Assembly: GCF_000004825.1 (NCBI RefSeq) | Contig: NW_008805085.1 | Coordinates: 248,001-312,000, forward strand | DNA length: 64,000 nt | Direction of reading: 5' to 3' | Source: Heterostelium album PN500 | Taxonomy: Eukaryota; Evosea; Eumycetozoa; Acytosteliales; Acytosteliaceae | Shown: in pieces, positions 33,190 to 60,800 of the stretch | Position numbering within the stretch: position 1 is the stretch's first letter | Layout: the number at the start of each line of letters is the position of its first letter | The notes under the pieces: generated by a model | Seen by the model: the letters and a program-made list of their open reading frames with translations, nothing else | Database searches by the model: none | What the model was told of the DNA's origin: nothing | Made by a program: the position numbers and the translations under genes

Positions 33190-34872
33190 TAACTGTTATG
33201 TTCATTTATTGTACATCAAGTTTTGTTATTATTTTTAACACAATTGGTAATTAAAACAAAAAAAAGGTTAAGCTCTTTCACCTCTGATTCTTCTTGCCAA
33301 TTGCATATCTTTTGGCATGATGGTGACTCTTTTAGCGTGGATTGCACATAAATTAGTATCTAGATAAACATGAATAGATCAATCAAAATTAAATAGTTAG
33401 TTTATCTCCTCCAATGGATAATAATAATAATAATAATAATAATTATAGTAATTGATCAAATATATACATACCTTCAAACAAACCAACAAGATATGCTTCA
33501 GAAGCTTCTTGTAATGCCTGTATGTGTAAAATAATTAAGATTCAAAAGTATGTTAGTAACGTTAATATCATGATACAGCCAAAAAATAATAAATAAATAA
33601 ATAATTAATAAATAACATCAGCAATTGCAGATGATTGGAATCTCAAATCAGTTTTAAATTCTTGAGCAATCTCTCTCACCAAACGTTGGAATGGAAGTTT
33701 ACGAATCAACAATTCACTTGTCTTTTGGTACTTTCTGATCTCTCTGAGTGCAACTGTTCCTGGCTTATATCTATGTGTTTTCTTTATACCTCCTAATTAA
33801 TGTGATTGTATGTAAAATCATTTTTATAATTATAAAATAAATAATATTTAAAGTTATATTAATAAAATTAAATTTAAATAGATTCTAATAATAATATGAT
33901 GATAACGTTACCACTGATATTCAGATTGGCATTCTTGAGGTGTTCCATTGGTCCAGTCTTTTGTGAGATCATTCTTCTTGGAACTTTACCTCCAGTTGTT
34001 TTACGTGCAGTGTTCTTAGTTCTTGCCATTTTCAATATTTATTAAATTGGATATGTTGTTTAAAAATAATAAGTATGAAAGTATATTTATTTATTTATTT
34101 ATTTATTTATTTATATTTGTATGATTATATAATATTTTTGGAAATGAATGAAAACAACAACAAACAATCAGTATTTATAGTTGAATTGACAAGAAAATAT
34201 AAAGAATGTTTTCAATTTAAATACCAATAATTATTGTCAAATTGATCGATTATTATTTGGTTTCTTTTAAAATCCCAATCGCAATTCAACAAAATGATAT
34301 TACGCGATAGATCACATTAAATTCAACTAAAATTAATCATACAAAATCATCTCCAAACATATCTTTGAACTCCCCCAAAACCAATAATCAGCAAATGCAA
34401 AGATGAGCAAAGATATAATGGAGCATTATTTCCAATTAAATCATTTTATATGCAAAGTATTCAGAAATTTCCGATCCAACGACACTCTGGAAATATTGAA
34501 TATTCCATTCATTTCATTCAAAACTTTCTATCTGTAACATCAAATTTCTTTATTTCTATTTCTATAAATATTTCTTACATATTCCATCATTTCTTTTGGA
34601 ACAATGGAAATTTTGAAATTTTAAAAAAATTATACAAAAATATTTATTTCTACAAAATCATAAAACCAATATATCTTTTTATAAAATTATCCAAAACATT
34701 TAAAATATTTACAAATAAACTATAAAATATAACAAAGACTATAAAATAAATAGTTTTTATATTTATAATTAAATTCAATTTAAAAAAATAAATATATATT
34801 TAATTCCAAAAATATTATGTATCAAAAAAAAAAAATTCAAACTTTCTTAATAGTTGAAAATGAATATATAAA
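33190..34872. repeat. inverted repeat, copy A (with histone H3 variant gene)
   Basis: This segment matches the reverse complement of 56466-58152 over its whole length: H3 exons, introns, about 0.85 kb of upstream DNA and about 80 bases past the stop. In the upstream block 34440-34760 only a handful of differences are seen. The outermost 100 bases on each side diverge by small indels. It indicates a recent segmental duplication in inverted orientation. Confidence 0.93.
33268..34029 (-). CDS. divergent histone H3 variant, copy A (splice donor 2 altered)
   Basis: Four exons (34029-33912, 33792-33617, 33517-33472, 33359-33268) encode an H3 of about 143 residues. The fold region is near canonical ([74 protein letters not shown]). 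The tail starts [16 protein letters not shown], keeping K4, K9 and K14, but then diverges ([20 protein letters not shown]). It lacks the ARKS motif around K27 and is six residues longer. Exon 2 in copy B ends GCT before GTATGT; here a T is missing, leaving GATGTT. Splicing could still use GTTATT one codon later, which would add one Asp before ALQEA at the start of alpha-2. This is probably the functional copy, but the donor needs RNA support. The gene is flanked by HSF and the CBS protein gene. Confidence 0.85.
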
Positions 34873-35142
34873 TTTATGTTAAATTTATCTAGGTTAGGTT
34901 ATTAATTGTAAATAATTTGGACAAATTACACAACAACGTTACTGATCCAATTGTTTTAACACAAACAAAATACTTTTCTTATTTTGTTTTTTTAATCCAA
35001 AATACAAAAAAAAAAATTATTAATTGATATTGATTCTCACAATATTAAACTAACTTTTATAGATTTAAGACTTTATTGAAAATAGATTTCCTTAATAATA
35101 TTTAAAACATTTACAATCAATTGAATTTAAAATATGTACAAT
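34030..35142. other. upstream region of H3 copy A, mostly inside the inverted repeat
   Basis: Up to 34872 this is duplicated at 56466-57324. It contains a 91-codon open frame (34450-34725) kept in both copies, with changes that alter amino acids as readily as not, so I do not call it a gene. ATTT repeats lie at 34083-34112. From 34873 to 35142 the DNA is unique and A+T-rich; no gene seen. Confidence 0.6.
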
Positions 35143-36466
35143 TTATTGATCAGCAGTCAATGGTTTGTTTGATGATGATTGTTCAACTTCATCGGCCTCC
35201 ACCTGTAGGTACGGCTTTGATAGATCTCCCTCGAATATTAGTAGGTTAGGGTGGTTACTCATTGGCATTAGTTCTCCAATGAGATCACGCAATGTAATTA
35301 CTCCCTGGGTCTTGAACATGTTGTCAACAATATACACGCGATGAACCGATTTAGATACGAATATCTCCAAGATATCCTCTAAAGAGCTCTCCACCGAACA
35401 TGTAATCGGCTCTCTATCTATAAATTCAAACACAGGTTGGAACATTCTCTTCCAGTTCTCTCCATTCTTACCGATCTTCTTGATATCTCGAGATGAAAGA
35501 TTACCAACAAGAGTTCCATCTTCTTTAATAACAGCTACACCTCCAACACCCATGATTTTGATGAGCTTGAATGCATCGATTACCTGTTCGTCCTCTAGAA
35601 CCGACATTACATACTGGTTGGCTGCACTCATATCACCAACTTTTCGATAACGGCGACTTCCAAGTCTATCACAGTTCTCATAGACCCAATGGATTAGATC
35701 AAACTCTGTTATGATATCAATGATTTCATCTCTGTCATCAACCACAGCAATTCTATTAATTCCTTGCTTCGATAAAACTTCGAAAGCAGAGAACATTGTA
35801 GTACCAGGTGATAACTTTTGATACTTTATCGACTTTCCATAGGGATACTCTTTGCAAATCAAACATTATTAATATATTATAATTTGAAAGAATAATATCA
35901 ATTTTCTTTACTTACCCATTATTTTACTAACTTTGGTAGTTTTAAACTCTTCCAAGTCAAATAAAGAAGTGATTTTCTTTAAATGTCCTGTTTTATTTAA
36001 TTTAAAAAAAAAAACTATTAATGATTTGTTGGTCATTTTTTAATTTATCTACATTACTTTTTCCAACTTCGTCAACAATAAACTTAAGAATATCCAAAAG
36101 ATCAATCATTCCATAAAACAATTCACCTTGTTTTAGAACAGGACAAGATAAAATATTATTATTTAATAATTTCTAGAAAAAAAATTATAATTAGAAATTT
36201 TAAATAAAGAATAAAAAGAAATAAGTATAAGTCTTTACATTAAAAATACTATGGAGTGATTCATCCTTGTGTGTCACAACAATTTCTCTTTTGGAAGCCA
36301 ACTGTCCATCCAGAACTCTTCTTTTCTTATTTATTCCGGTATGCTCGAAACTCGAAATACTATTTTTTGTCAAAGACAAAATGAAATCATCAAATTGTTT
36401 ATCTCTTGATTTCTCTTCATTTTCATGTTTCCTAGTTCTCTTTGTTGAGGTTGTATTTTTTGTCAT
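35143..36466 (-). CDS. four-CBS-domain protein, AMPK/SNF4 gamma-subunit-like
   Basis: Four exons (36466-36239, 36172-36058, 35987-35916, 35849-35143) give 373 residues. After a charged, basic N-terminus (about 1-60) come four CBS repeats. Each ends with the Asp that contacts ribose in AMPK gamma: IDLLDIL, ITEFDLIHW, LSSRDIKKI and ITLRDLIGEL. The HRVYIVD element also fits gamma subunits. AMPK gamma senses AMP/ATP and controls the kinase complex that switches on catabolism. The N-terminal basic tail (KNTTSTKRTRKHENEEK) is not a known gamma feature and might direct the protein to the nucleus. Other four-CBS proteins (for example plant SnRK1-associated or IMPDH-like regulators) are alternatives; no carbohydrate-binding module is present. 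The start at 36466 is the first ATG of the frame. Confidence 0.75.
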
Positions 36467-36732
36467 CTTTCTTTCTTTATATAAATAATTATATCTTCAT
36501 AATTTGCCAAGTAATAAATTTAAATTGACAAATATTTTGTGCCAAAACAAAAATAAAAAAAATTTTGAAAAGTGAAAAAAAAAACAACAAACAATTTTTT
36601 CCTAATCAGAGGTTTCTAGATTAAAAGAACAAGTTGATTAATGTTATCACAATAATTATATATAATTATATATATGATAAAAATCTTGGTGTCAAAAAAT
36701 AAAAGTATGAATAAAAAATAAAAATGCAAGAC

Positions 36733-36768
<36 letters not shown>

Positions 36769-36881
36769 TATTATATCATAATTTAATATTATACTTTTAT
36801 GTTTTTTTAGGTTGTTTTTGTTGAGTTTTATGATTTAAAAAGGGATTATTATTATTATTATTAAAACTATAAAGACAACAT
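36467..36881. other. intergenic with T27 tract
   Basis: Spacer between the CBS gene start and the V-ATPase c gene stop. It has a TA-rich palindromic stretch (ATAATTATATATAATTATATAT) near 36652-36674 and a T27 homopolymer at 36737-36763. No gene seen. Confidence 0.55.
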
Positions 36882-37672
36882 TTATACGTTTGGTACTAAG
36901 TTGGTACCTGGGCAGTACTCGTCATCGACGGAGGTCAAAAGAATACCGACGATCAAACCGTAAAGACCCAAAGCTTCAGAGAAAATGAGAATAAGCATCA
37001 TAATAACGTACAACTTGGCTTGTTGACCGAAAGCACGGACACCAGAGTCACCAACAATACCAATAGCCATACCGGCAGCAAGACCACAGAGACCGACAGT
37101 CAAACCAGCACCGAGATCAGTGAATGACTTGAAGAGGGTGTAGTTCTTGTTTGGCTTAAGTTTACCAATGATAATGACACAAATAATCAAACCGTAAATA
37201 GCAATGACACCAGCGAAAATGACTGGAATGAAAGCTCTGATGACGAGATCTGGCTTCATGACACCCATATTTGAAATACCGACGGCTGACTTGGCAGTAC
37301 CGTAAGCAGCACCCATAACTATATATTTAAAGAAAAAAAAAATTATATGGAAAAAAAAAAAAAAAAGAATTAGATATTTATAAGTTTGTAGATTTACTAT
37401 AATAATTTATCTAATATATATCTTGTTGTTGTTGTTGTTTATATCAAACTATACTATTTATATTGCTACTATAGTTATGTATGATATATAACTATGTGTA
37501 TATATAATTATCTTATATTATTTATCTCTATATATTATTATTTGTTTTATACATTACCTGTGAAGACGAGGGCAGCAGTGACACCCATAGCACCGAAGAA
37601 TGGTGCATAGACTGGGCAAGCTGGAGTAATATAACGGACAATGGTGGCGAAAAGGGTAAGGAATTGAATCAT
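36882..37672 (-). CDS. vatP: V-type ATPase 16-kDa proteolipid, subunit c
   Basis: Two exons (37672-37558, 37318-36882) give 183 residues, slightly longer than the usual 155-165. Four transmembrane helices are clear. TM1 has [14 protein letters not shown] and the junction joins it to [17 protein letters not shown]2 is [20 protein letters not shown]3 is [22 protein letters not shown]4 contains the proton-carrying Glu in [16 protein letters not shown]. The protein forms the membrane rotor ring of the vacuolar proton pump, abundant in contractile vacuole and endosomes of amoebae. The N-terminal extension ([20 protein letters not shown]) is unusual in its IVRYI run but common in length. It lies head-to-head with the c'' gene 2.0 kb away. 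Confidence 0.96.
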
Positions 37673-39668
37673 TTTATATTATATATTTATTATATATATA
37701 TGATCTGTATAGAACCTGTGGTAAAGAAAAAAAGTTTTGAAGGTGAGTTCAAGTGTTCCAACAAGAAAGGCGTCAAGTGAAAAAAAATATTTTAGTGCGA
37801 GAGTTTGAAAAAAAAATTGAAAAATAAAAATTTAAAAAAAAACAGAAAAAAAAAATTAGAAAAAAATAAAAATAAAAATAAAAAATATGTCGTTGGAAAA
37901 AGTTTCGTTATTGACTTGAGATGATTTTTTATGTATCAGGGCTTCCAACCCTGGTTATTTTTATGATATTGGAAAAAAAAAACAAAACACAAAAAATCTG
38001 AAACAAAATTAAAAATAAATAAATTAAAAATATCATATGTATATATTGGTGTCTGTTTTGATTGACTGATTGATTGATTTATTACTGCTGTTGTTGTTGT
38101 TGTTTATTATATTTGTTTGATTGAAACTTTCTGACAATTTATTCCAATTCATTTGCAATCCATATCATTTCATATTTGTTAAGTTGACTATTTATGTGAG
38201 TTGAATTGTTATATTGAAAGATAAGATTTGCTGTATAAATGAATGATTCTGATATATGGCGATGGTTGAGTGATTAGGTGATAAATCTAATCTAATCAAT
38301 TCGTAAATCTTATCTTTTAGATATGTATCGGAGTAAAAGATATGTTATGAATGTATGATTGTTTGTGTTTATCTAAATTTTTTTTTTTTTTTTTATAAAC
38401 AGATTTACATTTGAATAAGAACACATTCAATAGCAATTGAATGTGTTTATTGTTTGTAACAATAACAAAAGATAGAAAATAAAATGCTGTTCTAGAGTTG
38501 TAGTTGATTGTTAGACAAATAAAATTGAATATGATATGATATGATTTGATTTGTTTCAAACATATTTGATGGTAAAAGAAATACTTGAAACTCTGTCTAA
38601 ATATCTATATTATCTATTTATCATACAAAGTCTATGCTTCAATTGCATATTTATATAATGATGTAATAATAGTTTACCTTTATATATGTTGTTTTGAAAA
38701 GAAGTGAAAAGGTGTGTGTAAAAGATAGAAACTATATTTATAAATATATATTTATTAGTTATATATTTATTCGATTAGTCGAGTAATAGTAATAGACAAA
38801 ATGACCAGACAAACAAATTTGGAGTTTTATATCACTCACTTTATTTATTAAATATTGCAAAACGCCTGGGCCAGTGTAGGAAAGCTAATTTTGTGAGTGT
38901 TTAAAAAAATAATTAAAAAAAAAAACAAAAAAATATTCATAAAATCAAAACAACCATTTTTTTTTTGCTTGTTTATTATTATTTTTTTTTTTTTTTGTGA
39001 ATGCGTTGTTTTTTTTGTTTTGTTGGTGTAATTCAACCTGGCTCGTAAAAATTTCGAAATAGTGTATTGTGGGGAGAGTTGATATGCCTATACGCCCTGG
39101 GCACATCAAAGAATATTTTTGTTTTTTTTCTGTCACTATCGATTATTATGAATTTTCCAATGATAAATACTCTTTTAAAAGTTCCGGCGATGCAATTTTT
39201 GAAACAATTTCTAACACTTGCTGTACTGGGGAGTGTTGATAGAGTTGTTGGAGACAAATTCAACCTGGTTAGACACTCGATAAGAGAAAAAAAATAAATT
39301 AAAACAAAAAAAAAACATGAGATCTACTTCTTTTCTTTCTCAATAAAAAACTAATATTATTAATAAATATCAAGTTTTTTTATTTTTATACTTGTCAGTC
39401 AGACCTCCCATATTAAATTATTGGTGCTGTTACCGTGTTCATACATTTCCAGCAACAACACGAAAACCAACATTAATTTTTAAAAAAAATTAAAAAAATT
39501 GTTGTTTTTTTTTTTTTCAAAAATTTTCAAAAAACAGACTAAAGTACAAAGTGGAAATAGATAATATTAGACTCTTGATTTTAGCGAATATACTTCTTAG
39601 CCTAAATTGTTAAATTAATTTAGTTGTAGCAGTATTAATATATATATATATAATAGATAGATTAAAAT
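37673..39668. promoter_or_regulatory. divergent intergenic region between V-ATPase c and c'' genes
   Basis: About 2 kb of A+T-rich DNA with no convincing gene. It must hold the promoters of both proteolipid genes. Around 39030-39275 two G-rich elements recur: TGGGGAGAGTTGATA (39069) with TGGGGAGTGTTGATA (39227), and TTCAACCTGG (39031 and 39259). Similar G-rich boxes bind factors in dictyostelid promoters, but the match is not exact. Confidence 0.5.
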
Positions 39669-40800
39669 ATGGATCAAGCACTTACATCTTCATCAGCTGA
39701 AGCTGCTAATTATTTCTTTGGTGGTTTCTTCGTATGTGTCGTTGTTAGATTTATCAAATCTTATCTTAACTATACTTTAAGAACTTAAATAATAATGATA
39801 GTAGTAGTAATAATAATAGTAATAGTTATAATAGTAGTAGTATAGTTAAATAATAATAAAGTTGATCTAATATATAGTTCACAACAGTAATCATAATAGT
39901 TTAAGTTCTTGGTATTTTAGAGAAGATTGTTGTTTCAACTAGTTACTAATTATATCTTATGTTTTGTTTGTATAGATTGCCACTGTAGCACCATCAACTT
40001 GGGCTGCCATTGGTTGTGGTCTCTCGATTGCTTTGTCAGTCGTAGGTTCTGCTTGGTATGAATCAATCACTCACTCACCATCACACACACGCATACACAT
40101 ATATAGGAAATATCAAAATAGTTATACTTTGAATACAGTCACAGATACAGCAAGAGGAAGAAAAAAAAAAACAAATAATATTATCAAAAAAAAAAAAAAG
40201 AGAGAAAATTATAGTTGTTTTTTTAATTGATCAATAGAATGGCAACAACAAAGAAAATAGAGAAAGATAGATTGTTTATATATTTATACATAGTAATACT
40301 AGATGATATTTCCATTGTATATTATAAAAATATTTAATAAAATATACTAACATTGTCTCGGTTCGTTATTATATGATTATAGGGGTATTTGGGTTACAGC
40401 TTCATCACTTATGGGAGCTGCAGTTGGAGAACCAAGAATTAGATCAAAGAACATTATTTCAATTATTTTCTGTGAAGCCGTAGCTATTTATGGTATTATT
40501 TTGGCTATTATCTTAAAGGGTCGTATGGAAGGACCACCAAATATCAGAGACCCAGCCGGTGATTACATGGCTGGTTACCTCATGTTTGCTTCAGGTATTA
40601 CCGTCGGTTTTTGTAATGTATTCTCTGGTGTCAGTGTCGGTATTGCAGGTAGTGGTTGTGCTCTTGCTGATGCTCAAAACCCAGTACTCTTTGTAAAGAT
40701 GCTTATTATTGAAATTTTCGCTGGTGCTCTCGGTTTGTACGGTGTCATCGTTGGTATTCTCATGTCTTCTTCAGTAACACTAGGTGCCAAAGTACATTAA
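39669..40800 (+). CDS. V-type ATPase 21-kDa proteolipid, subunit c''
   Basis: Three exons (39669-39731, 39976-40055, 40383-40800) give 186 residues. Features of c'' (Vma16) are a five-helix layout, the glycine-rich [23 protein letters not shown] loop with PRI/SKN, and an essential Glu in the middle helix ([14 protein letters not shown]). The last helix has [14 protein letters not shown], where subunit c has Glu, so this copy is c'' rather than c. The loop [12 protein letters not shown] is typical of c''. One copy joins the c ring of the vacuolar proton pump. The splice sites (GTATGT/TAG, GTATGA/TAG) are ordinary. Close linkage to subunit c could allow coordinated expression, which is inference. 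Confidence 0.94.
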
Positions 40801-41048
40801 ATCAATCACAACCAGCTTGGACGTCTCAAAATGAACAATCTGGAAATAATAATAATAATAATTCATAATAATTTAAATATATAAAACAAAATCTAAAAAA
40901 TTTAAACCAAAAAAAAAAAAAAAAAAAAAGAATAATAGTTTATAGATTAGATTCTATTAATTCATTTTTTTTTTGATTAGTTGATTAGATAGGATCAGAT
41001 TGATTAGATGATGATGAAAACAAAACAAATAATTTATTTAAAATTAAG
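40801..41048. other. 3' spacer between convergent c'' and Pex1 genes
   Basis: 248 bases shared by two 3' ends. It is A+T-rich with an A20 tract at about 40910-40929. No feature beyond the likely polyadenylation regions. Confidence 0.5.
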
Positions 41049-44000
41049 TTATGCAAGTGTTTGTTTCGGTCCTTCTTTCTTTTGACCTGTGACCGAACCT
41101 CTTTCTTTAAGGAAATTCTTATAGCTTTTGTTTATATTAATATTAGTTTAAACTTCATTATCTATTATAGCTAGTTATAATAATAGTCATTAACTTACAT
41201 TTTTTCATATCTCTTTCTTTCTGAAAGTGGAACTGATGGTGAAGAGTCAGCTAGCGCTGCATCAAAGTGAGCAAGTTTAATTAATGGTGGTTTGTCATCT
41301 TGATTCTGTTTGTTCTTATCATTTGAATCTAGATTTGAATCCGATTGTAAATATTGTTGTTTAATCTCATCGATCTAGAATTAATTTAAATATTTTTGTT
41401 GATGTTAGTAGTCATGAATTCATTGTCAACAATAATTATTTTGTTACTTTTTTGAGTAGTTTCGATCTTTCTTCCATTGTCATTGGTTTCTCAGCTGATA
41501 TATTGTCTTTGTTGTTTGGTTGAAATATAACAATGTTTGATCCATCGACATTATTGGATTCCTTTGACGCTTGTTCCTCTCTTTCTTTCTTCTTTCTCTC
41601 CTCACGTTCCTTCATGAATTCATGAATGGCCTTTAGTTGTGAGTTGTACATGAGAGCTCTTAGATCGGTACCGGTATAGTGTTCTGTTTTCTCAGCGAGT
41701 GAGACGAGTGATACTTCCTGGAGGTCAATATTCATCTTGGCAGCCAACTTCTCCAAGATCTCCAGTCTTTCATGTTGCTCCGGTATGTTGCAATAGAGAC
41801 TCTTATCGAGACGACCGGGACGCAAGAGTGCTGGGTCGATTAGGTCCGGTCTGCTAGTGGCAGCGAGCACGTAGACACCGCGCAGTCCTTCGACACCATC
41901 AAGTTCAGTAAGGAATTGATTCACCACACGATCTGTAACACCGGTGCTATCGTGTCCTCTTCTGGGAGCAATCGAATCAAATTCGTCGAAAAACAAAACA
42001 CAAGGTGTTGCCGATGAAGCACGTGTAAACATATCACGTACTGCCTGCTCACTGGAACCAATGTACTTGTTTAACAACTCTGGTCCTTTGACAGAGATGA
42101 AATTCAAACCGAATTCACCGGCAATCGAAGAAGCGAGCATCGTCTTTCCGCAACCTGGAGGACCGTACAGCAGCAAACCGGAACGCATACGAATCGGTGA
42201 CGATTGGAACAGTCTTGGATATTTGGACGGCCATCCTACAGTCTCTTTCACCATAGCTCTAACATTGGCAAGTCCACCGATATCATTCCATTGCGCAGCA
42301 TCGGATTCATGCAGCTTCACACCCTTCAAAGTAATAGGAGTGTATCCTTCTTTTGCCTCCTTGATATATGCCAACTTGATATATTTCAATGAGCATGTCA
42401 GAGAGGAGGAGTTGTTGCTGTTGCTGTTGTTTGGATCGATCGAGTTTGAATAGTCATTCAATGAATGAATGGAAGCAATATGTATACTACGTTCAACAAG
42501 AGCTTCCACATCGATTGGTAGATATCCTTCGAGTGTCGATGAGAATTTCAAGAGATGTTTCTGGTTAGACTCTGGATCGTTTGGATCCAACTCGAGTTGA
42601 TGTAGTTTCAGATGAATCTTTAGAATATCGATACGTTCCTCTCTGGTTGGAGGTGGTATCTCAATGGTCATACCAAACAGATCGGGTGTTTGTATCTCCT
42701 TGTAGAGTACTTGTGTCGATTGAGCAGTGGCTACCATCACGATTGGGTGTTGCTGGTTGGAGGAGTCTGCAATTGCCAACTTCTTCAAAAATGATCCTAT
42801 TTGATCGCATCTTATTTTACTTCCTGGATCTTGTTCATTTGGATTCGGTAGGATTGCATCGAGGTCTTCGAACAACAGAATCGATGGACGTGAATTCTCT
42901 ACTTTTTCGAATGTCTTTGCTAGAATCTTTCTTATTTTCTCTACTTTTACTTCTTTTAACTCTGAACAATTTAATTTGACAACATCTATATAAATAATAA
43001 TAATAAAATATTAGTTAATTTCCCCTTAGCTATTATAAATTAATTGAATTGATTGGTATTTACATGCTAATGAATTTGAATTCGATGCTAAATAAGATGA
43101 TAGTGCAGTTGCAAGTAGTGTTTTACCACTTCCGTGTGGACCAGTGATAATGATTCCACCGAATCCAGGTGTACCAAGTCTTGTTCTAACAAGAGAATAG
43201 TCAGATCTCAACAATAGTGTCATATACTCTAATGATTCTTTAATCTTTTGTTGAATACCACCGACTCTATAAAATATATCACCAATCTCATAGAAATCAT
43301 CTAATTTCAAAAGTTTCTCTAATCTTCCTATATTTATATCAGTCATAAATGAATCTGCACCAACCATATACAATCCATAATTCATTTGATACTTATTACT
43401 ATTATTATCTATATTATTTGAATGTTGTTGTTGTTGTTGTTGTTGACTATTATTATTATTATTATTAATATTATTTTGATGTGAAGATGCAACAGCAGCA
43501 GATATATTATTATCATCTAATACACCACCTATTCTATTATTTATAGTACTGTTTAGATATGATGCAAAATCAGCTTTCTTATCTTTTGATTGTTGTTGTT
43601 GTTGTTGTTGTTGATTTTGTTGTTGTTGGTTAAATTGTATAAATAGATCGATGGTTGGTGTATTGTGTTTGGTAGATGGTGGAATAGAGAGGATCGATCC
43701 GTTCACCAATGGATATCTTGTGGATGACAAGAATTTAGCTGACCACTCGCGAACGATCTCTTTCAATACATGTGAAGGTAGAACCATTGATTTCGGTGTC
43801 TTTGCTGCAAATGGTATATGATTGCTTTGATAGATTACCTGGTGAAGGGTCATAGAGTGTATCGGACAGATCGGAAGTGAATGTGGTGGAATAAGTTTGA
43901 CACGCACCTTTGAGTTTATAAAGATTGAACTAGTCAATCTTTGATTTCTTCCAATCAATATATGTTGATTCGATCTCGTTTGTGAACTAATATAAACTCT

Positions 44001-45013
44001 AGCATATATAGATCTTGCACCACCAATCTTTATCTTTTGAGCACCATCACCATTATTATTGGTTTTGTTGTTATGATGATCATTTTCATCAATATTATCA
44101 TTATCATCATTAAACAAAGAATATCTCCTACTATTACTCTTATTATTACTATTCTTATTATTCTTATCACTACTATTGTTATTATTATTGTTATTACAAT
44201 TATCGATTGTAATTTGTACGATGTCACCTTCATTCCAATGGAATTGTTGTAATGATTGACTTGAGATGTAGATGGTTGTTTGTGAGGTGGTTGGATCAAC
44301 AGAGAGATCTTGTACGAGAAGAGTACGCGGTTTCAGTGATTCTGCGTTGTGTGTTGCTGTGGCAGCGGGTGCCGGTAGATTTCTAGGTTTTGGCGCGACC
44401 GCTATTTCCACTTGGTTCGTTAGTCTCACGATTTCACTGGGTGCAGTATCGACTATCTTTAGCTTGATTATGGTCGAATGGTGTATCCAAATCGGTACGA
44501 TCTGACCACGTGTCATTACATTCACTTGATTCAATATCTGTTGTTCCAAGTACTCTTGGTGAAGTTCCAATATCTCCCAGTCGTCGGAGGTGAGTGGTTC
44601 CACCTGTACCGACGTTGCCTGTGGTACCGATCCTATCTGTGCTTTCACGGTGACACGTGTATGATCTGCAATTCCAATGGCATCGCCAAGCTCTGCATTC
44701 ATCTCTATTGCATCGGGTCCACTCGACGGATCGGAAGCACCGCCCGACCACCCAACATTGATCTTCCTTTCCTTCTTTGTAGACTTGTCATACCAACTCA
44801 ATTCCAAAGTCAATGAATTAACAGAGATTGCATTTTTCTATACATATTTACAATAATAATAATAATAGTTAGTTTACTACACCTTTTGTTTTTTAAGGTT
44901 ATATTAATCATCATATGACTAACCTCTGCCAACAAGAAAAGAGAATGTACAATCTTTGGTGGTAAACAAACAAAGCAATTTGTACTATGTTTAAATGTTA
45001 CATATAATTCCAT
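41049..45013 (-). CDS. pex1: peroxisome biogenesis AAA ATPase Pex1
   Basis: Five exons (45013-44924, 44837-43064, 42985-41448, 41374-41199, 41124-41049) give 1217 residues, close to human PEX1 (1283). The N-terminal domain matches the family (VEPLTSDDWEILELH, PIWIHHSTII). A poly-Asn/Gln insert (about 210-420) is typical dictyostelid filler. AAA domain D1 has Walker A GPHGSGKTLLA and Walker B ILLFEDLDAI. D2 has GPPGCGKTMLA, VLFFDEFDSI and LLRPGRLD. The C-terminus, YKNFLKERGSVTGQKKEG ending TLA, mirrors the end of human PEX1 and supports the last two exons. With Pex6 it extracts Pex5 from the peroxisomal membrane. The donors after exons 1 and 3 (GTTAGT, GTAACA) are less usual but keep frame. 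Confidence 0.96.
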
Positions 45014-45246
45014 TATATAATTGTGGAGTAATTAATAATGATGTAATAATATTTGTATAATCATTTAAAAAAAAAATAATATTTAAAATTTTCATAAAAA
45101 AAAAAAAAAAAAACAAACTTTGTTGTTCAAACAAAAGTTTATAAAGAATTTTTTAAGCGCGATTATTATTTGTTGTTTCTTTTATTTGTTTTTTTTAATA
45201 TATATCAATATTTAATTGATAGTTATTGAAATAGTTATATAATTAT

Positions 45247-46938: not shown

Positions 46939-47593
46939 ATATATAAATTTAATAATAGTAAAAAAATTAAAAAATTTAAATAAAAAAAAAAAACAAACAA
47001 AACAAAACAGTTACATTTTTTTTTTAAATTAAAAAAACAAAACAAGATTTTTTTTGATTCATTAGCACTAATTTAGGAATAACCATGTTTAATAACCAGC
47101 CTTTTTTTATTAATAATGTAGGTTTTGATCTTGTTTTGAAAATTTCTTGTTTGGGTAACGTAAATCTATTCTATTTTTACAAAATTGAAATTAACGTTTC
47201 ATAGATCTAAGAGTTCGAGAATACAATTTAATAACCATCAAAATACTATTAAAGGAAAAGAAAGAGTTGTTTCTAAAAGGAATTAAGTTCTTCTTTGTTA
47301 AACTTCGAAATACGGATGATGAACTTTTAAACAGACAACACAAATGCTGTTTAAATAGTTTGTTATAATATAAAAAGTAATACATAACTTCATCATGTGT
47401 GTTGAAATTCATTGCGCATACTCAGATTTCGCGGTATTTCTTTTATTTTGATTATTTCCTAACTATAATCAATATTGACACTGTTGGGAGAGGAGTTCAA
47501 TATGGTAAAGCAACCACACTCAACACAAAACTTTTTATACCAAAATACAATTTAAAAGTCATACTCACTCTCACGGCAACCAGTCATCACCAA

Positions 47594-48630
47594 GATGGTT
47601 TGGAAAGTTTCTTTCTTCTTTCAAACCATCTATTGTCACTGTGCTGTACTGTGTTCAAGTCGAAATTAGAAAAACCAATGATTGTTTATAGAATTATATC
47701 TAGGCGCCAGTTGATTGATATTTCCATTCAAGGTAGAGACATCCCCCCACTCTAAATGTGTCATCGATATGGTACGACATGTTGTTTATATAAAAAAAGT
47801 TTTCAAACTTCGAATTGAACCATGCAATCTACTGCGAATGGTAAGCATTAGTCTTTGTAACCCCACAGAAATTTATCTTAATTTTAAATCTATGTAAAAA
47901 TGTTTTTGTTTTTTTGATTTTTCTAAATAATGAATGGTTAACCGACAACATAAAATTACAAAAACAATAATTGTATCACCATCAAATTATTATTTTAAAC
48001 ACATTCAGACTAACAACAAATAGAAAAAAAATAATTAAATTTGGTGCGCACCAAAATGAACGATGATTGTAATATATATTATTCTTGGGTTGATGATTCG
48101 AAACTTGGTCACCCAGAAATGACCGTCATCTTTACTAAAGTGGTAATCTGTAACTATTGTTGGTATATGGGATTTTAGTATCGATATTGTGTTGTTTTTT
48201 ATTTCAAATTTTAACACACACAATCTAAGTTGGTGCACCTAAGAATAAAGAGAGACCCCCACTTCAAGGTCTCAATCACCTTTTTTGGTAAAAATCAAAA
48301 CTTTCGGTTATTCACACACATTGAGATAAAAAAAAAATTGGAAAAAAAAAAAAACAAACTAAATTTTTCTAATGAGTGGACAAATTTTTCAATTTTATTT
48401 TCCTTTTCTCATAGGTGGATGGTTTGATTAGTTGTGTAGTGTGGGAAGCTGTTTTTGGAGTATTTCCAGGGATATATTAGAGAGTTTTTATATTTCAGTT
48501 GGCACACACTGAGAGGCCTTTGTACTATACACTCGAGTGTGTACATTTCATAATTCAAGTCTCAACGAAAACAAAAGAAAAAAAAAACAAAAAAAAAGTT
48601 TATGATACTTCTGATCCTAATCGATAGGAT
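47594..48630. repeat. cluster of short palindromes
   Basis: Five self-complementary sites: GATGGTTTGGAAAG/CTTTCAAACCATC arms at 47594-47630 (one bulge), TTTGGTGCGCACCAAA at 48040-48055, GAGACC/GGTCTC at 48252-48273, ACACTCGAGTGT at 48529-48540, and ATCCTA/TAGGAT at 48614-48630. Each is read directly from the sequence; their function is unknown. Confidence 0.7.
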
Positions 48631-49860
48631 GCTTCCTATATATATAAAACTTTTGTTTGTTTAGATTTTCATATAAATATTTAACCACACACTACCTCTT
48701 AACGATCGTGTAGACCAACTGTAGAGAATATTAATATTTCTAAAAACAAATAACCTACACAGCTGACGATGAATTGAAACAGAAAATAAATGAATTAAAC
48801 AAGCAAAACAAAAAACATTTTTTAAAATATAATTATATATATTTATTAATTAATAATAATAAAATTGTAGTAATATTAATTAATTATTACTATTGTTTTT
48901 CATTTATTTCTTTTTCTCAAATCAATAATAATAATAATAATAATTAAATGACAAAAGTAAAATAATTAATTCTTAAAATCGATATCTATTCAAAGTAAAC
49001 ATTTTCCTTCATTTATAAAAAGATTAAATCTTTATATAAATTTAAATCTAATAATTAAGTTTTTCGTATTTTTTTAAAAAAAACTTAATTTGTAAATATT
49101 AAATCTTATAAGTTCACTTTAATATTAAACCGACCATCATTAAACAATATCATTTTTCATTGTATTAGTTAAAATATCTATATTTATTAAATATTAATTT
49201 ATATAGATACAATTTATAGTTTATATTAGCCAGAAAATATTTCTAAATTTCATTTAAAGTTTCATTATAAAAATTTTAAAAGATCCTATTTAATTATTTT
49301 TTATCGAGACACTTTCATTTTTTTTTCAACAATCATTTATATTATTTTTAAAGATACAACATTTTTTGGTAAATGAAGCAAATACTTATAAATTGTTGTT
49401 TTTTATTCATCTTTAATAATAATAATATCATTTTTATTACTCAATTTAATAAATCGCAATAATAAATTAGTTAAATCTATAGTTAGAGATTTAAAACCTC
49501 TTTCAATAACCAATCATAATCAAAGATACAAACAGTAATCAATTAAGATTTTTCCCGAATTTAGTAAGTATAATTTATTACATGACAAAAGTAATTGTTT
49601 TTTTTTATACTTTCAAATTGAAATTATTGGTTGATTTGTTTCTAAATTAATTAATTTAATTAAAAAAAATCTTTCTTTTTTTTTTTTGTTCATTTTTTGT
49701 TTTTTTTATAGTTTCAATTAATTTGAACCTTTTTAATTGTTTCTTTAGAAATAAACCAATAAAACTTCAACTCAAATCATTTTACTATTCAATTATAAAT
49801 ATTCAATTAATTTAAAGATTATAAAAAATTTCTTTTTTTACAAAAAACTATTATTATATT

Positions 49861-49900
49861 ATTTTATTTTATTTTATTTTATTTTATTTTATTTTATTTT
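49861..49900. repeat. (ATTTT)8 pentanucleotide microsatellite
   Basis: Eight perfect ATTTT units in a gene-free stretch upstream of the histidine kinase gene. Confidence 0.9.
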
Positions 49901-51504
49901 ATCCTTTTTATATTACTATAAAAGGTAATTTCTCTCTCTTTTTTTAGTAAAATTTGTTTAAACCGCCACCACCACCATCACCACCAAATAACAATTAGAG
50001 TGTAATGTGTGATCTTCATGATCTTTAAATTCATTGTCATTATTATAACCCCACTTTTTTATTTTAAAAAATTTGTAACAAACCAAAAAACAAAAAAACA
50101 AAAATTGACACTCATTGTCACTGCTCTCTATTCTGATAATAGTTCTTTTAACACCGCTATTTCACTTTCATGTTAAAGAAGGTGTGTGGATTAATGATTT
50201 AAAAATGTTGATGTTAAAGTCTATCAACAACATAAAACAACAACAAAGACAGCAGTCCCCGCCTACACTACTATACTATTAGTTCTCTAATAAGTTTCAA
50301 TCGAGACCTTACAAAATCATTTGAGCGAAATGAATCATCAGATTCTCATGTTGTTTTGTCAAACACGATTCTAAATTCAACAACAACACGCAACAACACA
50401 CAACACAACATAACACACAACTTCTCTATTAATTTTGTGTAGCAGAATGTTGTTGTTGTTGTTGTTGTTGTTGAATTTTTTGTATTATCTTTTGATAATA
50501 AGAATACAAAAATAATAAGAAAGACTAAAAAGATTTCCTTTTTAAGTAAAATAACCAATTCTGTTATATTTATTTTTAAAAAGAAAAAAACTAAATTTTC
50601 ATAATAACAACAACACATCAATATAATAAGCAAATCAACAATACGATAATGCAAATGACAACATCAACTGAATTAAAAAAAACAAAAAAAAACAAAAAAT
50701 AAATACTTTAAATTCTAAAGATGTAATCGATTGGTAACATTTTTAAGAGCTCTTTTTAAATATATATTTGCAATATCTTTATAACACATAAAAACAAAAA
50801 AAACATTATTATAAAAAAAAAACAAAAAAAATTAAAAAAACACAAAAACAACAACCATACCAAATTCAATACTGCAATAACAATTACAAAAATTCACAAA
50901 AAAAAAAAAAAACAACAACAACAAATAAACCAACACCATTAATCAATACAACAAAACTCAATCCAAATGCAGGACACTTCTTATTTATGCACCATTTTTA
51001 TACATCATCACTTTATAAATACAGCATTTAACATTAACAACCACAAAAAAAATTTTAATATTTAAATATTATTTCTATGTTCAGCGACAACCAACCCACC
51101 ACACACGCACGCACGCACACACAAGTATCTTATACAACATATATTTATCCTCCTTTATAATTTTACTTAAGTAAATTAATTCTCTCTCACTAGTTTGCTC
51201 TATGCGCTTGAAGTTTTGACACTATTTGGTTTGGTACGGTTGTTTGTATTTCATTTCTTTCCATTTGTTTTTTTTTTTAAAAATCTTACTTGATTCCATT
51301 CATTATTACATTTATTTGTTCTGTTCTGTTCCTTCCTTCCTTCCTTCTTTCCTCATCTGTTTTTACAGTTCTTATCATATCAACTCAGTTTCTTTTGTCA
51401 TCTTAAAATTGCTATATTAATTAATTATTTTAAATTTATCACTAACCTAAGAACCTTATTCTCTTTCTTTATTTTTTCCCTCATTTTTTTGTTCTTAAAC
51501 AAAA

Positions 51505-54500
51505 ATGAATTTATTGCATTTCCTGTCGATGTTTATAGATCGATTGGATATGATCGCACACCAAATGATTTTTGTCGACCTGCGCGATTGGATTACCTAC
51601 ACGGTGTTCGCCACTATTCTCTATTTTATAAGTAAACAACTGATACACTACTGTCTAAGTCATATATTTTTGAATCAACAACCAACTTCATTGGACATTG
51701 AATTCAACAACAACAACAACAATAATAATAATAATATAATTGATATAAATAATAATAAAAACAATAGTAGTAGTAGTAGTAGTAGTAATAGTAATGGATA
51801 TGGTTCTTCAGAGTCGACTCAATTAATACCAAATCCAATTTTGACAGAAGATGAAATTAAAGATCTAGAAAGATTGGCATCTTCTGACAAATTTCCATCA
51901 GTAACGCCACCACGCTCTCCAAATCCTCCATCTTTGACAAATTCTCAAACAAACATGTCGAACAAAACCAATAACAGTGAAATCTCATCAATTGTCAACG
52001 ATCCAATGGTTTTACTTTGCAATATATCTTTTGGAGGTGGGGTTATCATCGATCAAAATCTTCACATTGTTTTTGTACTGGAGGGAACCAAAGATATCTT
52101 TCCCGACTACCAACAACTCAACCAACAACACCCAAGCTTTCTTGAGCTCATTGAAGAGGACTACAGAGAGCAATTTGTACATTTTTTTCAGATATCAAAC
52201 ATACAACAACAAACCAGAATGATTAACAATAATAATAACAATCAATCGAGTCAACAACAACTCTCACCGCAACTCAATCGAGTCGATTCACTACATAACC
52301 TCAACCAACTTCATAATGAACCAATCATTCTACGTCTACAAAGTACTGGTTCGACATTCATCACCGTTGAACTTAAACTCACTGCTATCTATTACGACGA
52401 TGGTATCTACTATTTTTTGGTCACTTCGCGACATCGGTAGACACAACAAGTTGGACCAAGTTGTCTCTCAGCTGCAGAGTGCAGTGGTCGACGATGAATC
52501 GAAAATCGACATTCTCTCGCACATCTCTCATGAACTACGTACACCAATCTCGAGTATCGTTGCTTCGGTTCAATTGTTTCGTGCCACCGAAGTCACTTCA
52601 CTCCAACGTGAATATCTCTCGCTGATAGACTCATCGACTACCTCACTACTCGAGTTGATCAGCAACGTTCTCGACCACGACAAGATGGGTGCCGGCAAAC
52701 TTTTATTGAACACCGTCGACTTTAACCTATCCACACTCATCGAAGATGTCTGTGCCATGGTCAGTACACAAGCACTTCGCAAGGGCATAGAAGTAGCATC
52801 CTATATTTTCACACATTGTCCATTGAGTATTTATGGAGATCCTGTAAGACTTAGACAAATTCTACGTAAGTATACAAAAACAATTATTCTAAAAAAATAT
52901 AATCTAACCATCTATAATATATATATATTTATTGAACTAACATTATTTATAATAAAACCCATTCCAAAAAAAAAAAAAAAAAAAATATTAATGATATTGA
53001 TTGATTTGTTTTAAATTTTATAAAACAATTACAATTTATCAATATTGTATCAAAAATTTTAAACTTTTACATCAATGGTACTCGATACTCAATAACAATA
53101 CAGTGAATTTATTAAGTAATGGTATCAAGTTTACAGAAAAAGGTCAAGTTTTGGTGAGAGTTGAACCTTTGGAGGTATGTGATACAAGTTTAACTTTAAA
53201 GTTTGAAGTTAGAGATACTGGTATGGGTATTTCAAAAGAGAATCTTCCGAAACTATTCAAGAAATACTCACAATTCAATTCAAAGATGTCATCCGGTCAT
53301 GGACTAGGTTTGGCTATTTCAAAAGGTAAGGACATATATAATATTGATATAATTATAAATATCCAAGTTTAACAATTATTATTATTATTATTATTATTAT
53401 TTGTAATTCAGACTTGGTACAGTTAATGGGAGGAAAGATTTGGTGTGATAGTAAACCAGGAAATGGATGTTCGTTTTTCTTTACTTTGAAATTCGATACT
53501 CCTCAGAAACAACTACCATGTCCAGTTCCAAACTTTAACAAGTTGAATGTTCTCATTGTAGATCCAAATGAATCCATTCGTAGTGTGGTCACCGACTATC
53601 TCAGAGAGTGGAACTGCAAGACAGTGGAGACATCCGATGTAAGCAGAGCTATCAAAGAGATTAAATCTCGTAATGATGAGCATATCGAGTTGGTTATTGT
53701 TGACGTCGATAGTACAACACTAAAATCATTTCTAAAACTTAAAAGGATCATGGATATCGAGTACTCTGGAAAGATTGGCTTGATCATGATGTCAAAAGAT
53801 CGATCGATGGTACATGGTATCGGTGTTGGAAACACTTCAAAGCTGACCAAGCCAATACGTCAATCACATTTGGTCGCCTGTATCCTTGCATCGATGCCAG
53901 AGTATCATTTGCAATCACCCGAACTCACCTCCTCGATGCCATCCAACACTAAGAAGCTACCGATCAAAGCATTCGACTCCCAACCACTCTATGATTATTC
54001 AAAACTATCGAGCTCCTCTCATTATCAAAAAGAGTTTTCCGCCAAGAACCTTGCCACTTGTATACCACCCTATTTGAAGTCCGATTCAGTGTCACCACTG
54101 TCATCCGATAGTCTGGGTAGTTCCTCCGAGTCGACCAGCTCACCAGACTTTGAAAGTCGTGCAGGTGGTAGTCACGACAGCCCCAACAACAACAGCCAGC
54201 TTGGAATGCGCAGGGTCACTCGTAGACACTCTATAGATATTGTTACATTCGATCACATTCAAAACCGAAATGCCTCACAAATCCGCAGTATTCATGAGAA
54301 CAGTGGGCAACCAGCAATTGCTGATATCTCTCCTATTGTAAGTCCAAAACAATTCTCCATCGATCCAGCTTCGCAGCCGACAGCCAGTCCCCAAGATCAT
54401 CAATACTTTCATTACCGACAGTCATCTGCTCCCCATAGGTTAGTACGCAGTCCCTCACAATTTAGAATCGATCCAATGAGCAACATTCGTGGTAGTAACT

Positions 54501-55345
54501 TTAGTGATGGAAGCACCAACGATCATGATAGTATGGATTTTGGCAATGGGAGTAGCAGCAGTAATATATCACCTCCCCACATGGAGATCAATGCAACACA
54601 AGTAATTCCTCAATGCAAAGATTCTCACCAACAACAACAACAACAAACAAACCAACAGCAACAACAACAACAACACTCGTCAAATCAAAATACCAACGAA
54701 CCAACCATCCTAGTAGTTGACGATTGTTTAATCCATCTGAAACTTGTAAAGCGTGTACTTGAATCGTCGCTTGGATTGTCAGTGATATGTGTTGGATCGG
54801 GTGAAGAAGCACTTGAGCAATTCGAAAAGCACCAATTCGCAGCAATACTTATGGATTGCGAGATGTCCGGAATGGATGGATACACCTGCACCAAATTCAT
54901 ACGCCAAAGAGAAACCGAGAAGACAGTTGCATCGATTAAATCTGGGTTGACACCACACGTACCCATCATTGCGATGACAGCACATTCGCCCAACGATACA
55001 ACCAACCGTACCAAATGTATATCTTCAGGTATGGACGACTACATCACCAAACCATTTGAAATCGATCATCTACTTTCGATTGTCAAGAAATGGTTTGAAT
55101 TTTACAATGAACTAAACAGTCAGATGAACGAGCGAATTCAACGAACACATTTTACACCTCGAAATGATTCCGATACCGAATCAACATCATCACCCTCCGA
55201 TGAAGACTCCACCGAAGATACCAAAGGTAGTCTAGCCTCGGCAACCAAATCACCGAAATCATATAATCATATACAATACCTTTTACAACATAAGAAAAAA
55301 TCAAACCAACTTTACCAAAACAACCAACAAGAACAACACATATAA
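51505..55345 (+). CDS. hybrid histidine kinase with two receiver domains (apparent +1 shift)
   Basis: Exons 51505-52865, 53104-53325 and 53412-55345; about 1171 residues if one base in the T6 run at 52413-52418 is extra. The N-terminus has a hydrophobic helix (about 25-45), an Asn/Ser linker and a PAS-like domain (VGG region to LRDIGRHNKLDQ). HisKA has phospho-acceptor His in SHISHELRTPIS (about residue 342). The ATPase domain shows LLSNGIKFT, VRDTGMGIS and GHGLGLAIS. The first receiver (VLIVDPNESI, VIVDVDS, LTKPIR) is atypical. The second is canonical: VVDD, ILMDCEMSGMDGY, MTAHS, ITKPFE. It should autophosphorylate and relay phosphate toward an RdeA-like HPt protein. As written, the frame breaks after the PAS domain; the downstream motifs are intact, so a sequence error or recent mutation is likely. 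Confidence 0.88.
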
Positions 55346-55766
55346 TATCATCATTACTTCATCACAACACAAAACAACAACAACAACATCATCACGGTAT
55401 ACATTAACTAAAATTCACATTGTGTATAAATTTCTCACAATAAATGCTTAAATAATCATTTGGTTAATTACAAAGAGCTTGTAATGTACCAGAGTATTAT
55501 TTAATATCTCTCAATGGTCATCAAATGATCAATGTTGATATCGATTAATAATTATAATCTAGACTAATCGCTCAGCTTCTTTAAGCAGAAGCAACATGAA
55601 ATTATATATTAATATTGAACTCGATTTAAATTTGTTTTGATAAAAATACACTAGTGTATAATATATTTATTTATATTATCAACTAAATACTATTATTATT
55701 GTTATTGTTGTTGTTGATGCTGCTTGATTAATGATTGTTTATTACACAAAGATTGTAACGTTTTGT
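55346..55766. other. 3' spacer between convergent kinase and costars genes
   Basis: 421 bases, A+T-rich, with CAA repeats just after the kinase stop and an ATT/GTT-rich part near 55690-55720. No gene seen. Confidence 0.5.
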
Positions 55767-56085
55767 TTACAAAATAATGATGTCGACATTATCATGTACA
55801 CGTTGCAACAAGATTTCACCATCGTAGGTAATCAACTTCTTTCTCTTGGCAGCCTTCAATGTTCCAAGCAAGGCTTCGAATGTGTTTGCAACTACGATCG
55901 TATAAATAATGAGTAAATATGTTAACATCGATCACACTTTTCAATAATATTATGTGATACTTACCAATATCATCATTGAACAAGACACCATATTTAACAA
56001 CGATTTTACCATCTGGTCTCTTTGTACCGAGTCTTGTGATCTCTTCGATCAATCTGCTTACTTCTTCATCAACATTCATAGTCAT
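55767..56085 (-). CDS. cosA: costars family protein (ABRACL-like)
   Basis: Two exons (56085-55965, 55891-55767) give 81 residues, the usual length. The sequence MNVDEEVSRLIEEITRLG, DGKIVVKYGVLFNDD, then FEALLGTLKAAKRKKLITY and GEILLQRVHDNVDIIIL matches human ABRACL closely as I remember it. The fold is a winged-helix-like domain shared with the C-terminus of STARS/ABRA. In Dictyostelium, costars affects actin organisation and cell migration. The start could be either of two nearby ATGs, at 56085 or 56079; the second gives MNVDEE, as in human. The junction (G|GTAAGT...GTAG|TTGC) restores V-A-N-T-F. Highly conserved and easily recognised. Confidence 0.95.
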
Positions 56086-57324
56086 TTTTTAAATTATAAT
56101 AATGATTAAAAAAATCCATTTTCAAAGTTTTGTGTGGTGGAAATTTTTTTTTTTTTGGTAAAAAGGAAATTTTATTGATATCAATTTGAATTATTATTAT
56201 CTTTAAAACTATTTTTGTATTCACATATTAGTAGTATTTAATATTATTAAATAATTATATTTATAGTAACGTTATTGTTTGAAATTGCTTGTCATCTTTT
56301 AATTTTATGGACAAATTTTGGTTTGTGTTAAAAACAATAGGAATGTAATGTGATTGTATAGTATCAGTACAAAAATAATATTTTCATATTATCTATTTTT
56401 TTTTTGAATTATATTTATTATTTTTTAAGAAATCTAACTTATAACAATTGAGATAAATAATTATTTAATTTATATATTCATTTTCAACTATTAAAGAAAA
56501 GTTTGTTTTATTTGAAAAGTTTAAAAAATATTTTACAAGTTTTGGGGAATAAAATATAATTAGTTTCTTTATCCAATAAATTTAATGATAAGTATAAAAA
56601 CTATTTATTTTATAGTTTTTGTTATATATTATAGTTTATTTGTAAATATTTTAAATGTTTTGGATAATTTTATAAAAAGATATATTGGTTTTATGATTTT
56701 GTAGAAATAAATGTTTTTGTATAATTTTTTTAAAATTTCAAAATTTCCTTTGATCCAAAAGAAATGATGGAATATGTAATAAATATTTATAGAAATAGAA
56801 ATAAAGAAATTTGATGTTACAGATAGAAAGTTTTGAATGAAATGAATGGAATATTCAATATTTCCAGAGTGTCGTTGGATCGGAAATTTCTGAATACTTT
56901 GCATATAAAATGATTTAATTGGAAATAATGCTCCATTATATCTTTGCTCATCTTTGCATTTGCTGATTATTGGTTTTGGGGGAGTTCAAAGATATGTTTG
57001 GAGATGATTTTGTATGATTAATTTTAGTTGAATTTAATGTGATCTATCGCGTAATATCATTTTGTTGAATTGCGATTGGGATTTTAAAAGAAACCAAATA
57101 ATAATCGATCTATTTGACAATAATTATTGGTATTTAAATTGAAATCATTCTTTATATTTTCTTGTCAATTCAACTATAAATACTGATTGTTTGTTGTTGT
57201 TTTCATTCATTTCCAAAAATATTTTATAATCATACAAATATAAATAAATAAATAAATAAATAAATAAATATACTTTCATACTTATTATTTTTAAACAACA
57301 TATCCAATTTAATAAATATTGAAA
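56086..57324. other. upstream region of H3 copy B
   Basis: Unique A+T-rich DNA from 56086 to about 56465, then the inverted-repeat copy of the upstream region of H3 copy A. (AAAT)n lies at 57240-57270. No independent gene seen. Confidence 0.55.
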
Positions 57325-57897
57325 ATGGCAAGAACCAAGAACACTGCACGTAAAACAACTGGAGGTAAAGTTCCAAGAAGAATGATCTCACAAAAGACTG
57401 GACCAATGGAACACCTCAAGAATGCCAATCTGAATATCAGTGGTAACGTTATCATCAAATTATTATTAGAATCTATTTAAATTTAATTTTATTAATATAA
57501 CTTTAAATATTATTTATTTTATAATTATAAAAATGATTTTACATACAATCACATTAATTAGGAGGTATAAAGAAAACACATAGATATAAGCCAGGAACAG
57601 TTGCACTCAGAGAGATCAGAAAGTACCAAAAGACAAGTGAATTGTTGATTCGTAAACTTCCATTCCCAACGTTTGGTGAGAGAGATTGCTCAAGAATTTA
57701 AAACTGATTTGAGATTCCAATCATCTGCAATTGCTGTATGTTATTTATTAATTAATTAATTATTTATTTATTTATTATTTTTTAGCTGTATCATGATATT
57801 AACGTTACTAACACTTTACACATACATGCATTACAAGAAGCTTCTGAAGCATATCTTGTTGGTTTGTTTGAAGGTATGTATATATTTGATCAATTAC

Positions 57898-57933
<36 letters not shown>

Positions 57934-58152
57934 TATTATTATTATTATTATCCATTGGAGGAGATAAACTAACTATTTAATTTTGATTGATCTATTCATG
58001 TTTATCTAGATACTAATTTATGTGCAATCCACGCTAAAAGAGTCACCATCATGCCAAAAGATATGCAATTGGCAAGAAGAATCAGAGGTGAAAGAGCTTA
58101 ACCTTTTTTTGTGTATAAAAAAACAAAACTTAATGTACAACAAATAACAGTT
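56466..58152. repeat. inverted repeat, copy B (with H3 variant pseudogene)
   Basis: Reverse complement of 33190-34872; the two arms face each other across 21.6 kb of unique genes. Differences seen by eye include microsatellite length in introns ((ATT)n at about 57896-57950 here, shorter in A), scattered substitutions and the lesions in the H3 gene. The left edge lies within A+T-rich DNA and carries no recognisable target-site duplication. Confidence 0.93.
57325..58101 (+). pseudogene. histone H3 variant, copy B, broken
   Basis: Same four-exon layout as copy A: 57325-57442, 57562-57735, about 57838-57873, 58020-58101. Two lesions are visible. In exon 2 an extra C in CCATTCCCAACG (57660-57671) shifts the frame inside the conserved [12 protein letters not shown] segment and leads to an early stop. 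At the 3' end of intron 2 the acceptor reads ACATG, where copy A reads ACAGG, so the AG is lost at 57836-57837. The donor of the same intron (GTATGT at 57736) is intact here although altered in copy A. Exon 1, with the [13 protein letters not shown] tail, and the last exon are intact. It is a non-functional copy as written unless both differences are sequence errors. Confidence 0.85.
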
Positions 58153-60717: not shown

Positions 60718-60800
60718 CGACATCTGCAGGATTCGAACCTGCGCCCCCGAAGGGATTTCCTTAGCAGGGAAACGCCTTAAAACCACTCGGCCAAGATGTC
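60718..60800 (-). tRNA. tRNA-Ser (anticodon GCU)
   Basis: Read on the minus strand, the acceptor stem GACATCT pairs with AGATGTC and G is the discriminator base, as expected for serine. The D arm contains the A box (TGGCCGAGTGG). The anticodon stem TTTCC/GGAAA encloses CTGCTAA, giving anticodon GCU, which reads AGC/AGU. A long variable arm (CCCTTCGGGGG) marks a class II tRNA. The T arm GCAGG-TTCGAAT-CCTGC includes the B box. No intron. All stems pair without mismatch, so it looks functional. Confidence 0.97.

Follow-up and report, generated by a model that had tools for sequence, protein, structure and literature searches.

Inverted twin histone H3-variant genes in Heterostelium album: probable conversion-like homogenization of old duplicates and lesions in both copies as assembled

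Introduction

Within a 64 000 nt stretch of the Heterostelium album (Polysphondylium pallidum) PN500 genome (C24:248001–312000 of an assembly of 32.9 Mb in 39 contigs; hereafter the window), two copies of a histone H3-variant gene lie on inverted arms, and each carries a lesion at the same intron. How did two such genes come to be almost identical, are their lesions real, and could gene conversion between the arms restore either of them? The twin inverted copies and their lesions were noticed in a first-pass annotation of the DNA, and that observation holds. Here, we compare the two copies, designated A and B after the arms on which they lie, with each other and with further H3 genes of the genome, in particular an intact copy on contig C12; the comparisons rest on one strain, PN500, and on its sequence as assembled. 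The reading that we favour, and that we regard as probable rather than secure, is that A and B are old duplicates made alike by conversion, both of which have recently decayed and are redundant, the function being held by the C12 copy.

Results

The same four-exon H3-variant gene is present in arm A and in arm B. Five inverted repeats (I1–I5) pair positions 33259–34786 with 56568–58110 of the window, with 97–100% complementarity per piece, and over a core of approximately 1.53 kb the arms are 98.7% identical: setting gaps aside, 20 of 1506 aligned positions are substituted, and there are seven gaps, two of them next to each other. The cores are inverted with about 21.8 kb between them, and both genes are oriented outward. 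Beyond the core, A–B identity in 100-column steps is 83% and then 65% on the promoter side, and 61% on the 3' side; the near-identical arms of 1.7 kb described previously are therefore borne out for the 1.53 kb core and not for the terminal ~120 nt at the promoter end or ~80 nt at the 3' end. In their best local alignment, which contains many gaps, the promoter-side edges of A and B match at 93 of 107 paired positions.

Conversion between the arms had previously been suggested, and the evidence for it comes from a three-way alignment of A, B and the C12 copy, in which each variable site was counted either as grouping A with B against C12 or as showing another pattern. The A-with-B grouping prevails in the core, both in noncoding (171 sites versus 17) and in coding sequence (17 versus 1), whereas the counts are 19 versus 38 in the promoter-side edge (Fisher 1.5e-17 against core noncoding) and 18 versus 22 in the 3' edge (Fisher 5e-10 against core noncoding). 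All three copies share homology in the promoter-side edge, as none of 500 shuffles reached the alignment score of A–B, A–C12 or B–C12 (48.5, 42.5 and 55.5, respectively). The similarity of A and B is thus limited to a tract at the ends of which the site pattern switches, most clearly on the promoter side, as would be expected from gene conversion between old duplicates, and on these patterns that interpretation is supported. Recent duplication in place of conversion is disfavoured on the promoter side, where the edges of A and B are homologous to C12 and are about as distant from each other as from C12. A DNA search with the 751 nt upstream of A (34050–34800) matched, besides itself, only B and C12.

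A number of points weigh against so simple a history. The limits of the core were set from A–B identity, which inflates the contrast in site patterns, and the alignment of the AT-rich edges is uncertain. The promoter-side limit is not perfectly sharp, with 8 of 26 A–B events falling within the first 61 bp of the core. Homology is less strong in the 3' edge (the A–B, A–C12 and B–C12 scores were reached by 1, 3 and 114 of 500 shuffles, respectively), and there A with B is still the most frequent pairing, at 18 sites versus 11 and 11.

As assembled, the two genes are broken at opposite ends of intron 2. In copy A the donor reads GCTGATGTT, compared with GCTGTATGTT in B and C12, and GT is also kept in a fourth, more diverged copy at C24:1191505; the loss of one base that had been described is confirmed. 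An 8 nt stretch, ATTAATTA, is also missing from intron 2 of A. If this intron is left unspliced, translation of A ends after ...SSAIADVIY. In copy B the intron-2 acceptor reads ACAT/GCATTAC, compared with ACAG/GCATTAC in A and ATAG/GCATTAC in C12, so that the reported loss of the acceptor AG amounts to a single G-to-T change at position 57827. The extra C in exon 2 of B was also correctly noted (CCC, compared with CC in A, C12 and the fourth copy), and shifts the frame within that exon to a TAA. A further lesion of B, overlooked previously, is a 19 nt deletion in intron 2, which shortens the distance from a TACTAAC-like branch site to exon 3 (17 nt in B, 36 nt in A and 38 nt in C12). Rescue of B by an AG 10 nt downstream is ruled out, since the extra C already leads to the TAA in exon 2, and an upstream AG at 57784–57785 is disfavoured by its position upstream of the branch-like site.

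The genome-wide count of this H3 variant that had been called for gives, as lower bounds from gene searches, at least four intron-bearing copies (A, B, C12:1464582–1466111 and the more diverged C24:1191505–1192153), together with at least two intronless H3 genes (C28:165214–165594 and C38:474714–475088). The C12 gene has four exons and encodes an intact protein of 142 residues, identical to that of A when A is read at the ancestral splice sites. Between the coding sequences of C12 and A there are 18 synonymous and no nonsynonymous differences (dS ~0.22; chance without selection ~1e-12). Because the C12 and C24:1191505 copies both have intact intron-2 splice sites and CC in exon 2, it is the lesioned states of A and B that are derived. 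The earlier statement that neither copy is perfect is therefore true of the sequence as assembled, and each lesion being private to one arm, none has spread or been repaired since it arose.

As assembled, then, both genes carry the disabling changes, relative to an intact homologue, that mark a pseudogene. Signs of relaxed selection were not found: A has no nonsynonymous difference from C12, and a single synonymous change and a single indel separate the exons of A and B. Since the presumed conversion, 1 of 429 aligned exon positions has come to differ between A and B (a synonymous, A-derived change), compared with 19 of 1077 in the noncoding core (Fisher P 0.02); about 7.6 exon differences would be expected, and the Poisson probability of at most one is 0.004. 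The exons having changed less than the noncoding core, the breakage, if real, would be recent. Either selection lasted for most of the time since conversion, the breaks being very young, or not all of the breaks are real, and the absence of protein-changing substitutions points to the same two possibilities. Intron 2 itself is rich in A–B differences, its 92 bp among the 1462 bp of the inner core holding 6 of the 18 events there (post hoc binomial P 6e-4; neighbouring gaps are scored as a single event, and the eight events nearest the promoter-side limit are excluded), which partly explains why both genes have a lesion in the same intron.

The product is an H3-type histone. The C12 protein aligns end to end with solved H3 chains (best E 4e-66), its residues 1–142 pairing with 1–136 of 8kcb_F (Histone H3.1 / H3.2), and its exons match PF00125 above the cut-off, exon by exon. 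Core H3 proteins begin ARTKxTARK, with lysines 4 and 9, and an H3-type start with both lysines is found in A, B and C12. Centromeric H3 (CenH3) has a diverged fold with a longer loop 1; a lengthened loop 1 is not seen in the C12 protein, which aligns without gaps to H3.1 over the fold region. The protein differs from eukaryotic core H3 in its divergent N-terminal tail, and its length exceeds that of the best-matching H3 chain by six residues. When residues 1–58 were searched against the database, the 120 matches listed (of 791) included two H. album entries, at 100% and 74% identity, the other 118 being at 66% or less.

Three side observations concern these genes. The public protein PPL_09944 (C12:1465348–1466101), of 116 aa and ending ...LFEDILD, seems to be a truncated model when compared with the 142 residues supported by the DNA. 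The intronless genes at C28:165214–165594 and C38:474714–475088 have unusual tails, PRKHIGSKQAHKQTPVSQGG and PRKHLANKSASKYPSTSG, respectively. The KSAP stretch found around K27 of other H3s was seen in none of the H3 proteins read in this genome.

Table 1. Features of the two arms and of copies A and B (positions in the window)
Feature	Position	Strand	Basis
Arm A, homogenized core, from stop codon to ~750 nt upstream of ATG	33268..34786	-	Complementary pieces (97–100%), stepwise identity, site patterns
Arm B, homogenized core	56568..58101	+	Complementary pieces, stepwise identity, site patterns
Arm A, outer edge, promoter side; diverged, homologous to B and C12	34787..34907	-	0/500 shuffles reach A–B or A–C12 local alignment score
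Arm B, outer edge, promoter side; diverged, homologous to A and C12	56430..56567	+	0/500 shuffles; A-with-B grouping at 19 versus 38 other variable sites
Copy A, exon 1 (118 nt)	33912..34029	-	Alignment of copies
Copy A, exon 2 (173 nt)	33620..33792	-	Splice sites of intact copies
Copy A, exon 3 (46 nt)	33472..33517	-	Alignment of copies
Copy A, exon 4 (92 nt including stop)	33268..33359	-	Alignment of copies
Copy A, lesion: T of intron-2 donor GT gone, A-derived	between 33618..33619	-	GT in B, C12 and C24:1191505 copy
Copy B, exon 1 (118 nt)	57325..57442	+	Alignment of copies
Copy B, exon 2 (174 nt, one more than A)	57562..57735	+	Alignment of copies
Copy B, intron 2 (92 nt); donor GTATGT intact, acceptor AG to AT at 57826–57827	57736..57827	+	Comparison of copies
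Copy B, exon 3 (46 nt)	57828..57873	+	Alignment of copies
Copy B, exon 4 (92 nt including stop)	58010..58101	+	Alignment of copies
Copy B, lesion: CCC versus CC in the other three copies; frameshift to early TAA	57665..57667	+	Comparison of copies, translation
Copy B, site of 19 nt deletion in intron 2	57812..57813	+	Letters present in A and C12

Discussion

We hypothesize that A and B are old dispersed duplicates, and that A, B and C12 split at roughly similar depth. Well after the duplications, the 1.53 kb core of one arm, comprising the promoter side and the gene, would have been overwritten from the other by ectopic gene conversion. Normal splicing of intron 2 would afterwards have been lost in both copies, in A through the donor and in B through the acceptor and the shortened distance from branch site to acceptor, with the frameshift in exon 2 additionally disabling B. 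Both genes may thus be very young pseudogenes, or nearly so, presumably tolerated since C12 makes the identical protein. The comparisons show the homology, the conversion-like switch of site patterns, the derived state of the lesions and the identity of the C12 protein, whereas loss of function in A and B, redundancy as its cause and the reality of the lesioned bases are inferred. The conservation of the exons would fit just as well with continued selection on one copy or both, the lesions then being sequencing errors.

The possibility that at least one lesion is a sequencing error, so that at least one arm holds an intact gene, is the alternative to be taken most seriously, although we consider it rather unlikely. 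Dideoxy and 454 sequencing, together with a fosmid map, underlie the P. pallidum assembly, and in the dideoxy reference of D. discoideum single-base errors were revealed by RNA-seq (PMC5282741). The change from CC to CCC in B is of the homopolymer type and is the most doubtful of the lesions, and the exons of A and B are otherwise conserved as if both were still selected. However, three independent gene-breaking single-base errors in ~900 bases of coding and splice sequence would be unlikely (our own estimate, from ordinary consensus error rates). Moreover, the AG-to-AT change in B is a substitution, the T lost from A lay outside any homopolymer, and B carries the 19 nt intron deletion as well. 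Assembly error from collapsed repeats, which had also been put forward, does not account for lesions that are each confined to one arm and not seen in C12, and mixing of reads between the arms is ruled out as their source, as it cannot create bases found in neither the other arm nor C12. Should the lesions turn out to be erroneous, A and B would be a pair of intact H3 genes homogenized by conversion.

A second alternative, to which we attach only a small probability, is that copy A is still a gene, spliced 3 nt further downstream (GCTGAT/GTTATT), and encodes an H3 with one extra Asp. The frame is open in this case and yields 143 residues with SSAIADALQEA, the additional Asp preceding ALQEA. 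However, 13 of 14 strictly filtered introns begin with GTA, three of the 14 being intron 1 of the H3-variant family, a figure biased towards GTA because the donor profile of the intron model was trained on its own calls. The model overcalls introns (207 in 41 genes) and was mainly used after this filtering; in the looser, overcalled set GTTATT is the donor of 2 of the 207. Reading of the sequences shows GTA at the start of every intact donor, 11 in all, in the four intron-bearing copies. The Asp, placed by alignment to an H3 chain, would sit inside what we take to be helix alpha-2 of the histone fold. The rescue of A through GTTATT that had been envisaged is therefore unlikely to help.

The suggestion that the arms are a reserve maintained by conversion, each broken copy being repairable from the other, appears to us very improbable. 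It would fit the conversion-like pattern over this tract and the position of the splice lesions at opposite ends of intron 2, but the lesions stand unrepaired in the sequenced strain, with several in B, the intact C12 copy makes a reserve needless, and conversion is as apt to spread a lesion as to repair it. Repair of A or B by conversion may be possible. We give hardly any credence to a reversible on/off H3-variant cassette, in which complementary intron-2 lesions would be reshuffled between the inverted arms so that cell lineages at times held an intact or a differently broken gene.

We return to converted duplicates that have decayed, a pair that is real but ordinary, both members being broken as assembled and their reversible repair no more than conceivable. 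The H3 pair resembles inverted-duplicate gene pairs homogenized by intrachromosomal gene conversion, such as the arms of mammalian Y-chromosome palindromes (PMC6790999), in being inverted on one chromosome, with near identity confined to one tract and older divergence beyond its limits. It differs from them in its spacer of ~21.8 kb, its short arms of 1.5 kb and the lesions in both copies as assembled. With young pseudogenes it shares splice and frame lesions, a redundant duplicate and an intact paralogue elsewhere; unlike typical ones, its two copies were broken independently at opposite ends of one intron, and A is still without a protein-changing substitution. No published account of this H3 pair was recognized among the titles and abstract openings listed in a literature search on precedents. 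If the favoured history is correct, the pair would clearly illustrate how inverted duplicates can undergo conversion and then be lost independently, in a histone family subject to very strong selection. The comparison also yields an initial inventory of the H3-type genes of this genome, and it counsels caution, since two of the four intron-bearing H3 copies found should not be taken at face value.

Neighbouring genes and further observations

A Pfam scan of ten ORFs between and beside the arms gave matches for nine, the exception being 51499–52437. The matched neighbours comprise a CBS domain, an ATP synthase c, a PEX1-like gene (two ORFs), two FNIP-repeat proteins, a response-regulator protein with a weak histidine-kinase match, an HSF-type protein and a trypsin/PDZ protein. 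At the frame break of the PEX1-like gene an ordinary GT...AG intron-like stretch is apparent by eye.

The regions upstream of the two H3-variant genes, 34050–34800 and 56568–57300, match C12 at 74% and perhaps contain the promoter. A better-conserved block lies at ~34422–34522, where 57 of 62 aligned positions match C12, 38 columns being gapped. An RNA gene in this block was considered and rejected, as an Rfam search of the whole window at gathering thresholds yielded only a tRNA, a tRNA-Ser (gct) at 60718–60800 on the minus strand.

Elsewhere in the genome, H2B-like folds followed by H2A-like folds in one frame were noticed by eye at C2:144327–147549 (three loci, L024, L026 and L023, in ~3.3 kb) and at C9:1161050–1161316 (L028). 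H2B–H2A doublets have been described for giant viruses, and the dictyostelid set merits a separate study. The one tested, L026, aligns over both folds to H2B–H2A chains in the PDB, with a best E of 1.2e-14.

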